Source of the DNA: a virus
Strand: one strand, 5' to 3'
IMG/VR virus record: IMGVR_UViG_3300030838_000019
Coordinates: 1 to 44,083 of that record
Length of the DNA stretch: 44,083 nt
Under the pieces are notes generated by a model, which worked only from the letters and a program-made list of their open reading frames with translations, ran no database searches and was not told where the DNA came from. The position numbers and the translations under genes are program-made. Of the stretch, positions 3,944 to 12,835 are shown piece by piece; within the stretch, counting starts at the first letter, position 1, and the number at the start of each line of letters is the position of its first letter.

Positions 3944-4180
3944 ATGAGCTGCTACATCTGCGGTAAAGACGTTGAGCTTATTCAAACTCCCGATAGCAAG
4001 GAGTGCCCTTGCCCGGATTGCGGTCACTATCGGATTTCCGGTACAGCGATAAAGCTTTACGAAGACAACAGTTGGAAATTTGACGTCGAGCTGACACGTC
4101 AATGGCTTGCCTCGCAGCAAGGAAGCGGAAAAATTCCATTGATTGATTCTGATAGGGCCAAGTTGTTGATCGGACGTTAG
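3944..4180 (+). CDS. Zinc-ribbon protein, paralogue 2
   Basis: A protein of 78 residues with a very strong ribosome-binding site (AAGGAGGTCGCC before the ATG). MSCYICGKD supplies the first CxxC, CPCPDCGHYRIS the second, and FDVELTRQWLASQQGSGKIP matches the core of the neighbour at 3542. Its stop codon overlaps the stop of the convergent cytosine methyltransferase by three bases. The family is common in Pseudomonas as far as I recall, but I know no function. A nucleic-acid or protein interaction role would fit a zinc ribbon. Confidence 0.7.
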   Translation: MSCYICGKDVELIQTPDSKECPCPDCGHYRISGTAIKLYEDNSWKFDVELTRQWLASQQGSGKIPLIDSDRAKLLIGR

Positions 4181-6234
4181 GCGGCAACTGCTTCGCGTTC
4201 TGCCATGCGCCATGGGTCGTTGGCCCGTGCCAGTGCAGCCATCGGCGGAGGGCTGACGCTGTTCCCGCACATGTGGACCTGCTGAGTTTTGGTGAACGAC
4301 TTGCCGTCGGCGCCATGGCTGATGATGTAGTCGGCGGGGAAGCCCTGAGCCTTGTACAGCTCGGCCGGTTGCAGCATCCGCAGGCAGATGTCGACGATCA
4401 CGTACGGCGTGCCCTTGATGGTCACGGTAACCAGCGCCAGGCGATCCTTGGTGGTGATTGTTGGAGTTGGCTCGCCGGCGCCGCTCACGTTCTCGGTGCC
4501 ATAGTAGCTGATCAGGAATGCCGCGACCCGCAGCGCACCGGCTTCAACCTCCGGCGAAAGCTGAAACTCGACCAACGAGCTTTTGCCACCGCCGCCCGCC
4601 GTAATGGTTGGTGTTGGCTCATTCACGGCCTGGCCAACGCTGGCGCCGAACTGCCGCTCCATGAACGCAGTGACCAGCCCATGGTGAGTTCCGCCGGCGC
4701 TGATGGTGTGCAGGGGATCTGCTGCGTCCCGCGCATCGCAGTTGCCGCGCAGATGCACCAGGTTGGCCGTAACCAACTGCTGCTGGCTGCCGGTGTTTGT
4801 CACCGTTGTCATTGGGTCTTCGATGCTCTTGGCATCGGTGGCGTTGAAACCGCCATTCATCTGGGCCATGAACACCGTCGAGATGCCCATTGCGTGGGCG
4901 CCCCCAGCCGGACTCTGGTAGTTACCACCGCTGGTGATGGTCGGCAGCGGCTCGTTGAGTGCCTTGCCTTCATCAGCAAACCGGAACTTCACCAGGTGCG
5001 CAGCGGCAACCGCGTACTTTCCACCAGATGCCATTATGGTACCGAGCGGTTCATGCTGGTCGGCTGTACGCGGTGCGGACTCGGGCTTGTCTCCGTTGCC
5101 CAATTGCACAAGCGCGGCCGCAGATAGCGTCAACTCTCCGCGGTTGGCACAGGTTATTGTTGGCATCGGCTCGCCCGGATCGTTGATGCGATCGCTACCC
5201 TGGTGCGTGGCTGGCGCGATGATCGGGTTGGCCATGGCAAATGATCCACCGCGCGGCCAGGAGGTGACGGTGCGTAGCGGGTCATGTGCTGACTGGACGC
5301 TCTCACCAGACCAGTTCGCGATAGGTACGATAAACGGGTCAGCGGCATCAATGACGAACTTCTTCATACCCTTGGCGATCCTGCGCAGGGTGGCCGGTGC
5401 CAGTGGCTTTGGCCGGTCGAAAATGCTTTTGCTCGGGATGGTCCAGTCGATGCACTCTGCGGCCGTGCGCCACTTTTGCTGACCCTTTCCCGGGTGCTTG
5501 GCGTGGGTCGGCGCCGGCCAGGTAATTCGCTCGCCGTCGCAGCGGGCGATCATAAACAGGCGTTCCCGACTGGTCGGCGCGCCGAAGTCGCAGGCCTTGA
5601 TCACGCGCCATTCAACGACGTATCCCAGGTGTTGCAGCTCGGCGACAAAGGTTGCCCAGGTCTGACCGCGCCGCTTCGGATCAGGGACCAAGAACTGCTG
5701 GTGGACCGGGACGACCTCGCCCGGCTCGGCAATAGCGCCGCCCAGCTTCATTACTCGGCCGGTCACCTTGCAGCGCTTGGCGATCAACGGCCCCCACTGG
5801 AGGATCTGCTTCACGTTCTCCAGGCTGATGACGCGGGGTTTCTTCTTGCCGGCCCACTTCAGGCCGATCCACGACAGGTTGCGAATCTCACGCTTGCGTG
5901 GCTGGCCGCCGGCGGCCTGGCTGTGATGCGTGCAGTCCGGCGACATGTGGAACCAGCCCACGGCCTTGCCGCCGCACTCGGTGTCGGGATCACCCTCGAA
6001 CACGTCAGTGGTGTAGTGCACGGCGCCTGGGTGGTTGACGGTATGCATGCTGATCGCTTGAGGGCTGTGGTTCTTCGCGACGTTCACCGCGCGACCCAGG
6101 CCCATTTCCAGTCCGGTACCGGCGCCGCCACCCCCACAGAAGAAGTCGACAACGATCTCATCGTCCTGAGTGCTGAAGCCGAGTCCGTATTGAGTTTTGA
6201 AATCGAAGGGGTGTTTCTTCTGTTGTGCGGACAT
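4177..6234 (-). CDS. Phage DNA cytosine-C5 methyltransferase
   Basis: A protein of 685 residues that would methylate cytosine C5 in phage and host DNA, probably to protect the phage from restriction. Motif I is VVDFFCGGGGAGTG (residues 28-41). The catalytic motif IV reads SPDC with the nucleophile Cys101, a PD-C variant of the usual PPC. ENV is at 139-141, TSRERLFMIA (motif VIII) at 221-230, LQPAELYKAQGFP (IX) near 621 and GNSVSPP (X) near 657. The target-recognition region between VIII and IX is unusually long (about 390 residues) and holds eight degenerate copies of [DE]-P-x-x-T-[IV]-[TSM]. It stands alone, between zinc-ribbon genes and a short opposite ORF. Confidence 0.9.
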   Translation of the reverse strand: MSAQQKKHPFDFKTQYGLGFSTQDDEIVVDFFCGGGGAGTGLEMGLGRAVNVAKNHSPQAISMHTVNHPGAVHYTTDVFEGDPDTECGGKAVGWFHMSPDCTHHSQAAGGQPRKREIRNLSWIGLKWAGKKKPRVISLENVKQILQWGPLIAKRCKVTGRVMKLGGAIAEPGEVVPVHQQFLVPDPKRRGQTWATFVAELQHLGYVVEWRVIKACDFGAPTSRERLFMIARCDGERITWPAPTHAKHPGKGQQKWRTAAECIDWTIPSKSIFDRPKPLAPATLRRIAKGMKKFVIDAADPFIVPIANWSGESVQSAHDPLRTVTSWPRGGSFAMANPIIAPATHQGSDRINDPGEPMPTITCANRGELTLSAAALVQLGNGDKPESAPRTADQHEPLGTIMASGGKYAVAAAHLVKFRFADEGKALNEPLPTITSGGNYQSPAGGAHAMGISTVFMAQMNGGFNATDAKSIEDPMTTVTNTGSQQQLVTANLVHLRGNCDARDAADPLHTISAGGTHHGLVTAFMERQFGASVGQAVNEPTPTITAGGGGKSSLVEFQLSPEVEAGALRVAAFLISYYGTENVSGAGEPTPTITTKDRLALVTVTIKGTPYVIVDICLRMLQPAELYKAQGFPADYIISHGADGKSFTKTQQVHMCGNSVSPPPMAALARANDPWRMAEREAVAA

Positions 6235-10025: not shown

Positions 10026-10396
10026 TTACGCGGCTTCGAGCGTTTCGGATCGGCGCGTGATTCGGATCTGGGCTATCCGAACCGAAGGTGGTCGGCGGTC
10101 GCGGCGGGCGGGCTCGCTTGACTGGATGTTGCTCACGGCGTTCATGGTCATCAGCGTGGCTAGGACAAAGCACGCTGGCGAGATGATCTGTCGACGCATG
10201 GCCTCCGCCACCAGGGCGGTACGCCGCGTGACGCCGAGCTTGAACATGGCGTTGGTGAGGCGTTTCGCTACGGTGGCCGGCGAATTTCCTTCGCGGTAAA
10301 TCCAAGGGCTACCCAGAGCAGGAACTGAAGCTCTCGCGGTGCAAGGCCTCGACCGAGATGGCCCTTCCATGAACCGCTTGTGATTGTTTGATCCAT
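10026..10396 (-). pseudogene. LuxR-type HTH regulator, frameshifted
   Basis: Starts MDQTITSGSWKGHLGRGLAP at 10396 and reads RELQFLLWVALGFTAKEI, the first half of a LuxR/GerE helix-turn-helix, then hits a stop. The second half continues in another frame as NSPATVAKRLTNAMFKLGV, TRRTALVAEAMRRQIIS and a hydrophobic CFVLATLMTMNAV helix, ending at 10026. The break falls inside the HTH near 10285-10295 and needs 3n+1 bases restored, so a short deletion removed the turn. Intact relatives of about 130 residues occur as first gene of the leftward operon in Pseudomonas prophages, as I recall. Likely non-functional. Confidence 0.7.
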
Positions 10397-10697
10397 TGGT
10401 GTGATATCCGGTTGTTTTCCCAAAGCGCCCGATCGCTCAGGCGCTTCAGTGAAAATGTTCCGTCCCATTACCGCCGGGATGGCGGGGCGCATTGCTTGCC
10501 GGGTCGTTCTCTCGGTTCTGGCGTTTCACCATCGAGCAGCCGTCCAGGTTTGTCCTGTCGTTGGCAGGCTTTCGGGCCTGTCTGCTCGCCGGTCGCCGGT
10601 AGAGGCAATGCGGTCTGTTGTTTGTTGCGCTGACTGTTAAAGAGCAGCGGGTCTCTTGAGGCCCTTCGCAGTGGCTGTGTGTCGCTGCGATGGACGA
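10397..10697. other. Leftward early leader
   Basis: About 300 bases between the leftward promoter and the LuxR-like gene. It holds the boxA at 10635-10646 and short hairpins including CCGG-CGA-CCGG near 10595. A possible 28-codon ORF (MVKRQNRENDP...) lacks a good ribosome-binding site and is not called. The layout suits an antitermination leader. Confidence 0.5.
10635..10646 (-). promoter_or_regulatory. boxA antitermination element
   Basis: The minus strand reads TGCTCTTTAACA, identical to the rRNA boxA consensus that binds NusB/NusE. It lies about 50 bases downstream of the predicted start from the leftward promoter at 10698-10726, where lambda keeps its nutL site. A convincing boxB was not identified. 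Confidence 0.6.
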
Positions 10698-10726
10698 ACA
10701 ATACGTTAACGTATCAATCCAGTCAA
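10698..10726 (-). promoter_or_regulatory. Leftward early promoter PL
   Basis: On the minus strand TTGACT (10726-10721), a 17-bp spacer and TATTGT (10703-10698) form a good sigma-70 promoter pointing to the LuxR-like gene and the leftward early block. Operator dyads overlap both elements, so repressor binding would shut it off. Confidence 0.75.
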
Positions 10727-10756: not shown

Positions 10757-10781
10757 CAAAAAAGCCCGCTCATTGGCGGGC
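10757..10781 (-). terminator. Terminator after the DUF1654 gene
   Basis: AGCCCGC-6-GCGGGCT stem (10762-10781). On the minus strand a run of T follows (complement of the A run at 10758-10762). It ends the leftward transcript of the gene at 10800-11054 just before PL. Confidence 0.85.
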
Positions 10782-10799
10782 TCCATTCATTCGACCTGA

Positions 10800-11054
10800 T
10801 CAATTTTCCTTTGGTACAACCCAGAATATCTGCACGCCACCATCGTCTTGATGCGCGATGGTTACGTTGTCTGCTTCGTCGATAGCTTCAAGCAGTCGCT
10901 CCCAATCTTCTTGTAGCTCGTCCAGCGCTTTGTAGATAACGGCCCGCTTCGAGGTTTGCGCCCCGGTCGAGTTGATGATCTTCTGCACGCGCATGGCCAT
11001 CAGATCGAATGAGGTCGGAGGGGTGGGTTCTTTCTTTGCCTTTGCCTTTGCCAT
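10800..11054 (-). CDS. DUF1654 protein under SOS-type control
   Basis: A protein of 84 residues, MAKAKAKKEPTPPTSFDLMA at the start. The order RVQKIINSTGAQTSKRAVIY, DELQEDWERLLEAI, DNVTIAHQDDGGVQIFWVVP matches the DUF1654 family of Pseudomonas and its phages. The start at 11054 has GAGA upstream. A near-perfect LexA box (11072-11087) covers the promoter region, and its own terminator follows at 10757, so this is a single-gene SOS unit between the left operator and the toxin-antitoxin pair. The position and control suggest a role in induction, for example as an antirepressor, but that is inference. Confidence 0.8.
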   Translation of the reverse strand: MAKAKAKKEPTPPTSFDLMAMRVQKIINSTGAQTSKRAVIYKALDELQEDWERLLEAIDEADNVTIAHQDDGGVQIFWVVPKEN

Positions 11055-11071
11055 GATACTGCTCTCGGTTG

Positions 11072-11087
11072 CTGTATTAATATACAG
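11072..11087 (-). promoter_or_regulatory. LexA (SOS) box
   Basis: CTGTATTAATATACAG has the CTGT-N8-ACAG form with an AT-rich perfect dyad (CTGTAT/ATACAG). It is flanked to read TGCTGTATTAATATACAGTA, very close to the classical LexA site. It lies 18 bases upstream of the DUF1654 start codon. Confidence 0.8.
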
Positions 11088-11214
11088 TATTTTATTCGTC
11101 GTTAAATGACAAGCGGGGAGGGGAGAACATTTGTACTCTTTGTCCGTGGCAGCGCATCTGCGGGCCATGGCCGGATCGAGGCGCCAGGCGTGCGGGGCTA
11201 GGCTTTGCTTTTTA

Positions 11215-11240: not shown

Positions 11241-11564
11241 ATGAATGAAATTGCACACTATCTGAATGAAGCAGGAAAAGATCTTTACCAGGAATGGATG
11301 GATCGGCTCAAAGACAGAACCGCCAAGGCAAGGATCACCATGCGCATCAACCGTATGGCGATTGGCGCTTTTGGCGACTGCAAACCGATCAGCGATGGCG
11401 TTTGGGAGTTGCGCGTGGATTATGGCCCGGGCTACCGGGTCTATTACGCGCAGGCGGGCAAGCAACTGATCCTGTTACTGCTGGGCGGCGATAAGCGACA
11501 GCAACAATCCGATATCGAGAAGGCCATAGAATGCTGGGGCGATTACCAGCGGAGAAAACCATGA
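11241..11564 (+). CDS. RelE/HigB-type toxin
   Basis: A protein of 107 residues from the ATG at 11241 (MNEIAHYLNEAGKDLYQEWM). The segment ARITMRINRMAIGAFGDCK, then GVWELRVDYGPGYRVYYAQ and LILLLLGGDKRQQQSDIEKA, is the signature of the addiction-module killer branch of the RelE/ParE superfamily. Such proteins usually cut mRNA on the ribosome. The stop overlaps the antitoxin start (ATGA), giving the toxin-first order seen in HigBA. It sits inside the immunity region, where lambda carries its rex genes, and so would be expressed in the lysogen. Confidence 0.85.
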   Translation: MNEIAHYLNEAGKDLYQEWMDRLKDRTAKARITMRINRMAIGAFGDCKPISDGVWELRVDYGPGYRVYYAQAGKQLILLLLGGDKRQQQSDIEKAIECWGDYQRRKP

Positions 11565-11863
11565 ACAGATCACGCAGCCACGATCAGAGCGTTATCGAGA
11601 TGATTCGCACCGACCCGGAGTTTGCCGTCGAGTATCTGCGGGTGGCATTTGAAGAACTGGACGAAGAGGGGGGGGAAGTTGCCTTTCTGGCAGCGCTACG
11701 CCATATCGTTGAGGCTCGCGGCGGCATGGCTGAAATCGCCGAAAAGGCTGGCTTGTCTCGTGAAAGCCTTTACCGTGCGCTCTCTCCAAAGGGCAATCCG
11801 ACTCTACGGACGATGCGCCAGGTTGTGCATGCCACCGGCCTAACGTTTGCTGCTATTGCCTGA
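11561..11863 (+). CDS. HTH antitoxin
   Basis: A protein of 100 residues from the ATG at 11561. FLAALRHIVEARGGMAEIAE followed by KAGLSRESLYRALSPKGNPT and a further helix form an XRE-like helix-turn-helix of the addiction-module antidote type. It would neutralise the toxin by direct binding and repress the operon at the dyad 11215-11230. An ATG at 11531 is in frame but lies within the toxin gene and lacks a ribosome-binding site; the GGAGAAAACC before 11561 is convincing. Confidence 0.85.
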   Translation: MNRSRSHDQSVIEMIRTDPEFAVEYLRVAFEELDEEGGEVAFLAALRHIVEARGGMAEIAEKAGLSRESLYRALSPKGNPTLRTMRQVVHATGLTFAAIA

Positions 11864-11883: not shown

Positions 11884-12552
11884 TTAGAAAAAAACCGACT
11901 TCGGCATTTTCCCGTCCACTACCGTACCGACCACCTCCCAGGTGTCATCTATAGACTTCGTTGGGTATGAATTGTTGAGCGGTTTTAGGAATAGTTCACC
12001 CGCGTCGCGCACCAACTGCTTAAACGTTGCTTCATTGGTGTCAATCATTTTGGCTACCACGTATTGCCCGTGGCGAGGTTCTATGTCTGGCGCTACGAGT
12101 ATCAAAAATCCTTCAGGGAATGAATCTCCCGAAGAGCTAGTCATAGACGCGCCAACTACGCGCAACCAGAATCCATTATCACCAGCCCATACATCTGATG
12201 TATGTCGTGGACAGTTTGCGACATTGGACGCTTCTATCGCCTCCATGGCTGACCCCGCCTGGACCCAGCTTATTTCTGGGTATGTAAATGATCTAGTTGG
12301 CTGAAGAGCAGGCTCAACGTTCGATAAGGGTTCCGCTACTAAATCTGGGCGCACACCTCCGACCCATAACCACTCTGCTGGGACGCGGAGCGCTCTCGCG
12401 ATGCGCTCTACATTGTCTCGCTTAGGGCTCTTTGATTCGCCAGAAATTATGCGATGAACAGTTGGCTGTGTCACGCCAGACCGTCTGCTCAATTCCCCCT
12501 CGCTCCACCCCTTGCCACTCATCTCTCTAGAGATCCGATCTCCGATATGCAT
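11884..12552 (-). CDS. CI-like repressor, LexA/S24 family
   Basis: A protein of 222 residues from MHIGDRIS at 12552. It has an N-terminal XRE helix-turn-helix (LSRRSGVTQPTVHRIISGES) and a C-terminal S24 autoprotease domain. The likely cleavage site is SWVQAG. The catalytic Ser is in VVGASMTSSS (GAS-M in place of the common GDS-M) and the Lys in EATFKQL. It maintains lysogeny by binding the operators at 12575-12637 and 10701-10739, and RecA-stimulated self-cleavage would trigger induction. In-frame ATGs at 12597 and 12600 would add about 15 residues but lie inside the operator, so 12552 is preferred. Confidence 0.85.
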   Translation of the reverse strand: MHIGDRISREMSGKGWSEGELSRRSGVTQPTVHRIISGESKSPKRDNVERIARALRVPAEWLWVGGVRPDLVAEPLSNVEPALQPTRSFTYPEISWVQAGSAMEAIEASNVANCPRHTSDVWAGDNGFWLRVVGASMTSSSGDSFPEGFLILVAPDIEPRHGQYVVAKMIDTNEATFKQLVRDAGELFLKPLNNSYPTKSIDDTWEVVGTVVDGKMPKSVFF

Positions 12553-12574: not shown

Positions 12575-12637
12575 TTGCGGGAGTGTATTGCCTCCATCAA
12601 TACGTAGGCGTATCATTTGCTTAATACGCTGCCGAGT
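12575..12637. promoter_or_regulatory. Right operator OR, three sites
   Basis: The middle site ATACGTAGGCGTAT (12600-12613) is a perfect ATACG-N4-CGTAT dyad. The flanking sites TTGCGGGAGTGTAT (12575-12588) and ATACGCTGCCGAGT (12624-12637) are degenerate. The centres are 25 and 24 bp apart, as in lambda OR1-OR3. They lie between the divergent repressor and Cro genes. Confidence 0.75.
12588..12616 (+). promoter_or_regulatory. Rightward early promoter PR
   Basis: TTGCCT (12588-12593), 17-bp spacer, TATCAT (12611-12616). The perfect operator dyad fills the spacer and touches the -10, the same geometry as at PL. It drives Cro and the replication genes. Confidence 0.75.
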
Positions 12638-12649
12638 TGGAGGCATCAA

Positions 12650-12835
12650 GTGACCGTACAAGAAATGCTGAACAGTCTGTTCGCGCATGGCTTATCCCAA
12701 AAAGCCGTAGCTGTTCGGACTGGGACAACCCAGCCGACGATCCATCGAGCGAGCAAGGGCGCTGGAGTTCGGTACGAGACAGGGAAGGCAATTGAAGCCC
12801 TGCTTCTCGAAACGACTCAAAAGTCGATGACTTAA
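12650..12835 (+). CDS. cro: Cro-like repressor
   Basis: A protein of 61 residues from a GTG at 12650, with GGAGG six bases upstream. The protein has one compact helix-turn-helix (HGLSQKAVAVRTGTTQPTIH). It shares the TQPT-[VI]-HR recognition-helix segment with the CI-like protein, which explains how both read the same dyad. As the first gene of PR it should repress CI synthesis and tune early transcription. An upstream ATG at 12617 in frame would start inside the promoter and is rejected. Confidence 0.8.
   Translation: MTVQEMLNSLFAHGLSQKAVAVRTGTTQPTIHRASKGAGVRYETGKAIEALLLETTQKSMT

Follow-up and report, generated by a model that had tools for sequence, protein, structure and literature searches.

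LexA-controlled phage genes tied to induction include Tum of phage 186, one half of which is DinI-like, and the Gifsy antirepressors GfoA and GftA, whose genes lie outside the immunity region and whose products replace repressor cleavage, the Gifsy repressors being small and not cleaved; antirepressors can also act on non-cognate repressors. ImpC, another protein of interest here, is grouped with the DinI family. The closest described system is PP_3901 of P. putida, which is reported to be damage-induced, controlled by both LexA1 and LexA2, and required for damage-mediated induction of prophage genes, several of them; four PP_3901 primers are printed in PMC4595014.

The locus analyzed here lies in a stretch of 44,083 nt, hereafter the window, that constitutes IMG/VR virus record IMGVR_UViG_3300030838_000019 and whose replication genes show only a distant likeness to Pseudomonas phages. 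Its DUF1654 gene is read as a LexA-controlled prophage gene of the PP_3901 type that would promote prophage induction beside RecA-driven CI cleavage, a reading to which we assign a probability of roughly 60%.

The DUF1654 gene and its immunity region

The gene (10800–11054, minus strand; start at 11054, placed as in homologues, and stop at 10800) encodes 84 residues, of which 14–83 match PF07867 over profile positions 1–70 of 70 (E 9e-27, 93 bits, against a curated cut-off of 27 bits). PF07867 was the sole match, the DinI family profile (PF06183) giving none. The predicted structure (pLDDT 90) has the order helix-helix-strand-helix-strand-strand; Foldseek comparison with the PDB and BFVD returned no match at E ≤ 0.001, and no sequence relatives were found in the PDB. 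A DinI homology or fold for DUF1654 was accordingly rejected, for want of both a profile match and a Foldseek match at that threshold. Directly 3' of the stop codon, at about 10758–10784 on the minus strand, a GC-rich hairpin and U tract (stem-loop then T6) form an intrinsic terminator; the gene is a monocistronic unit with the terminator of its own that the original prediction had given it.

On the gene strand the promoter reads GAGTACAAATGTTCTC - 10 nt - TTGTCA - 17 nt - TACTGTATATTAATACAG - 17 nt - ATG. The LexA (LexA1-type) box, CTGTATTAATATACAG at 11072–11087 (minus strand; CTGTATATTAATACAG on the gene strand), had been called near-perfect and is in fact a perfect CTGT-N8-ACAG, the sole such match in the window against 0.32 expected. 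It overlaps the -10 hexamer TACTGT (11084–11089, minus strand), which is preceded across a 17-nt spacer by the -35 hexamer TTGTCA (11107–11112, minus strand). The box stands before the start codon as described, at a distance of 17 bases from the ATG instead of 18.

The order in the window is leftward promoter with dyad, DUF1654, divergent HigBA-like module, cI, rightward promoter with dyad, and cro-like gene. The leftward, PL-like promoter (TTGACT-17-TATTGT; 10698–10726, minus strand) carries the operator-like dyad ATACGTTAACGTAT (10701–10714), and the rightward, PR-like promoter (TTGCCT-17-TATCAT; 12588–12616, plus strand), situated between cI and the cro-like gene (12650–12835, plus strand, assigned by translation and position), carries the operator-like dyad AATACGTAGGCGTATC at 12599. 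DUF1654 thus has cI on one side and the leftward operator-like site on the other, within the immunity region as first proposed. The further claim, that it adjoins a CI operator, stands insofar as operator-like dyads are present on both sides; that ATACGTTAACGTAT and AATACGTAGGCGTATC are CI operators we infer, and this part of the claim stays conditional. The CI repressor (11884–12552, minus strand) has an HTH and an S24 peptidase domain, with Ala-Gly 37 residues before Ser and Lys 42 residues after it, and from this canonical domain, cleavage site and Ser/Lys dyad it looks fully cleavable.

The divergent module consists of a HigB-like toxin (Gp49/DUF891; 11241–11564, plus strand) and a HigA-like antitoxin (11561–11863, plus strand). 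The kind of toxin-antitoxin module next to DUF1654 varies by phage among HigBA, HicAB, BrnT and YafO (window 11241–11863; L317:2302–2891; L094:2772–3421; L093:545–985), as if the site were a slot for such modules. Elsewhere in the window, a truncated LuxR-type HTH frame (10268–10492) lies left of the operator-like site, an intact relative being found in the KT2440 prophage close to PP_3901 (L317:4351–4902). A 684-aa frame (4177–6231) matches C-5 cytosine methylases in three stretches set apart from one another.

LexA boxes across the DUF1654 family

Relatives gathered from viral contigs, phages, plasmids and whole genomes gave 235 non-redundant DUF1654 genes, with control stretches drawn from the same loci. 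The lack of a LexA-like dyad ahead of homologues had been named beforehand as a finding that would refute SOS control, and the survey of these genes contradicts it by a wide margin. The strict CTGT-N8-ACAG was found ahead of the domain, at the position that it occupies in the window, in 201 of the 235 genes as opposed to 18 of 3307 control stretches (0.5%), and the relaxed CTG-N10-CAG in 227/235 versus 677/3281. The family box is nearly always TACTGT (TA precedes CTGT in 98–99% of boxes) with TTG exactly 17 nt before it in 161 of 214 homologues, and it occurs at the same place in the ~30%-identity homologues of P. aeruginosa phages F116, H66, phi297, R656 and LESphi3.

A single CTGT-N8-ACAG per 44 kb arises in about a quarter of shuffles, and taken by itself the window box could be a chance or decayed site without function; however, conservation at a fixed position in homologues down to ~30% protein identity makes that explanation so improbable that it can practically be set aside. 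Because of the same conservation, LexA control is to be regarded as a property of the DUF1654 family and not of the window phage alone. SOS control of the window gene, as the original prediction had it, is strongly supported, with a perfect box that overlaps the promoter and is kept in homologues. In TC7 (L095:2402) the annotated DUF1654 start lies upstream of the gene's own LexA box, which is hidden within the over-long annotated frame; the true start is probably the MSKKQKQ methionine.

The family is found on chromosomes, on umuDC islands and plasmids, and in phages, and since DUF1654 is present in 173 of 199 Pseudomonas genomes it is a near-core chromosomal gene and not only a phage device. 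An S24-type phage repressor lies nearby at 95 loci (by BLAST), endonuclease I accompanies the gene at 60 chromosomal loci, and umuDC adjoins it at 8. An S24 protein was present in 20/20 DUF1654 phage records tested, although S24 repressors are common in temperate phages generally. DUF1654 occurs with several different repressor types and is repeatedly placed near cI in unrelated phages.

This distribution bears on whether the gene is instead general SOS accessory cargo that acts on host repair or mutagenesis (RecA, Pol V, DNA processing) and takes no direct part in phage induction. Its prevalence on chromosomes, its endonuclease I partner or umuDC neighbour, and its form as a monocistronic unit with its own terminator, in the place that rex occupies in lambda, are all what cargo would lead one to expect. 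The recurrent placement near cI in unrelated phages is not, nor is the reported requirement for PP_3901 in prophage gene induction, and we regard cargo as a possible but rather unlikely explanation. The endonuclease I partnership of the chromosomal copy does count against the PP_3901-type reading, since a prophage role leaves it unexplained.

In the chromosomal loci concerned (L060–L089, L103–L142) the endonuclease I gene follows within a few bases downstream of DUF1654, and endonuclease I is for this reason probably SOS-controlled in most Pseudomonas. In one genome (G242; L183, L184, L185) the DUF1654 matches number seven, and several of them have a LexA box to themselves; two others (L147, L149) carry a tandem pair of DUF1654 genes with a single box upstream of the pair. 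PA0922, a LexA-regulon gene divergent from dinB, was considered as the chromosomal DUF1654 of the aeruginosa group, but this identity was not upheld: the neighbour of that DUF1654 gene is isochorismatase-like, not dinB.

PP_3901 and a second dyad of probable LexA2 type

Just upstream of the -35 hexamer the window promoter contains a second dyad, GAGTACAAATGTTCTC (11138–11123, minus strand), that the original prediction had missed. By dyad comparison it is a probable LexA2 box (11123–11138), one base off GAGTAC-N4-GTACTC. A GAGNAC-N4-GTNCTC dyad occupies the corresponding place in many phage DUF1654 copies; in 24 phage loci its centre and the centre of the LexA box are 48–51 bp apart. In 6/6 two-lexA Pseudomonas genomes examined, a dyad of this form, GAGTACAAATGTACTC, stops a single nucleotide (1 nt) short of the lexA2 start. 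Aeruginosa-type genomes have a single lexA (5/5) and none of the AT-rich form; the dyad was found neither in DUF1654 genes of P. aeruginosa phages nor at chromosomal endA-linked DUF1654 genes. The window copy sits at the conserved place but has one off-consensus base, GTTCT for GTACT, a variant common to the window and L024. In a phylogeny of 236 proteins, at least 8 changes are required to account for the LexA2 dyad, but proteins of 84 residues are poorly resolved and no argument is drawn from this count. Eight other genomic copies of the dyad were read, and none had a nearby LexA1 box making a second dual promoter. Another LexA2-type dyad, GAGTACATCYGTACTC, is also conserved; it directly follows a phage-like gene and has no LexA1 box nearby (L310:2060, L311:2021, L314:2003, L317:9851). 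In L310 and L311 an ORF beginning [MV]REEKVVMYESPEAASIQTVTGW starts 77 nt after it, and the dyad may mark a phage gene that only LexA2 controls.

A single IMG/VR record, IMGVR_UViG_637000222_000004, contains exact matches to all four PMC4595014 primers, correctly ordered and oriented; no PP_3901 primer matched in 399 Pseudomonas genomes (one genome per species). The primers frame a DUF1654 gene with a GTG start at L317:3041, the protein of which is 52% identical to that of the window and the promoter of which, GAGTACAAATGTGCTC ... TTGCCA-17-TACTGTCTATGCATACAG, has both boxes. We take 637000222 to be the IMG number of KT2440. The exact placement of the published primers on a DUF1654 gene that has both boxes identifies PP_3901 as a DUF1654 homologue of the window gene; no statement linking DUF1654 to PP_3901 was found in the literature searched, where the name DUF1654 occurs in a single paper. 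The two prophage loci share a homologous protein, a promoter composed of a probable LexA2 dyad, -35 and LexA1 box, and divergence from a toxin-antitoxin module. They differ in that the neighbouring module is HicAB in the one and HigBA in the other, that the window's second dyad has one changed base, and that the KT2440 prophage repressor has Leu-Gly where the window CI has Ala-Gly. Leu-Gly occurs at the cleavage-site position in the S24-domain repressors of both the KT2440 prophage and a relative (L325, L327). The window CI looks canonical at this position, and PP_3901 may be required in KT2440 for a reason that would apply only in part to the window phage; on this account the probability given to the PP_3901-type reading stays moderate.

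In the mechanism proposed, host LexA (LexA1) would occupy 11072–11087 in the lysogen, over the -10 hexamer, and in two-LexA hosts LexA2 would probably also occupy 11123–11138, the LexA proteins holding the single-gene unit off regardless of CI status. Damage to the DNA would clear the LexA proteins and lead to early synthesis of the 84-aa protein, which would then promote the switching-on of prophage genes alongside RecA-driven CI cleavage. The second induction route of the original prediction is in this way supported for the homologue PP_3901, which is reported to be required for prophage gene induction; that the window gene plays the same role we infer.

How the protein would act is a more tentative matter. 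It could be a direct antirepressor of the Tum or GfoA kind that binds CI, or the repressor of another prophage, and takes it off its operators. In favour of this, the gene is a small phage gene under LexA control, PP_3901 is reported to affect several prophage genes, antirepressors can act on non-cognate repressors, and the repressors of some DUF1654 phages have no canonical cleavage site. The window CI looks fully cleavable, however, the family occurs with several repressor types and on chromosomes away from any phage repressor, and the Gifsy LexA-controlled antirepressors are encoded outside the immunity region; direct antirepression consequently appears improbable. We favour over it, tentatively and at odds that are themselves not high, a PP_3901-type protein that aids RecA-filament-driven self-cleavage of S24-family proteins, because DUF1654 adjoins S24 genes, namely cI in phages and umuD in mobile islands, and because DinI was found in 0 of 99 Pseudomonas genomes.

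Comparison with known induction systems

What is new here is that prophage induction and two LexA regulons are joined with an orphan domain. This domain of unknown function, carried by most Pseudomonas genomes, gains a working context and is tied to a published but orphan phenotype, that of PP_3901, and prophage induction is linked, in a testable way, to two LexA repressors that share a cell. Should RecA-driven S24 cleavage indeed be the common thread, DUF1654 would take the place that DinI, missing from Pseudomonas, leaves empty.

With Tum and GfoA/GftA the window gene shares the character of a LexA-controlled phage gene tied to induction. The likeness to Tum that had been proposed is reduced to analogy: Tum has a DinI-like half whereas DUF1654 has no DinI match, the gene lies inside the immunity region, and CI keeps its Ala-Gly and Ser/Lys. 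The Gifsy genes are placed beyond the immunity region and face repressors without autocleavage, whereas the window gene is flanked by cI and the leftward operator-like site and accompanies a CI with S24 domain, Ala-Gly, Ser and Lys. DinI and ImpC resemble DUF1654 in being small, under LexA control, and encoded on chromosomes, next to umuDC-type operons and in phages; the difference is that DUF1654 has no DinI match, its own predicted fold order and no confident PDB relative. It is conceivable, though we would not call it probable, that DUF1654 is the Pseudomonas counterpart of the DinI/ImpC/Tum set by convergence, not descent. A single family under LexA control, put to repeated use on the chromosome, next to umuDC on mobile islands and next to cI in phages, would then tune RecA-driven self-cleavage of S24 proteins (LexA, UmuD, CI), and phages of two-LexA hosts would equip their copy with a LexA2 operator that makes it responsive to both damage regulons.
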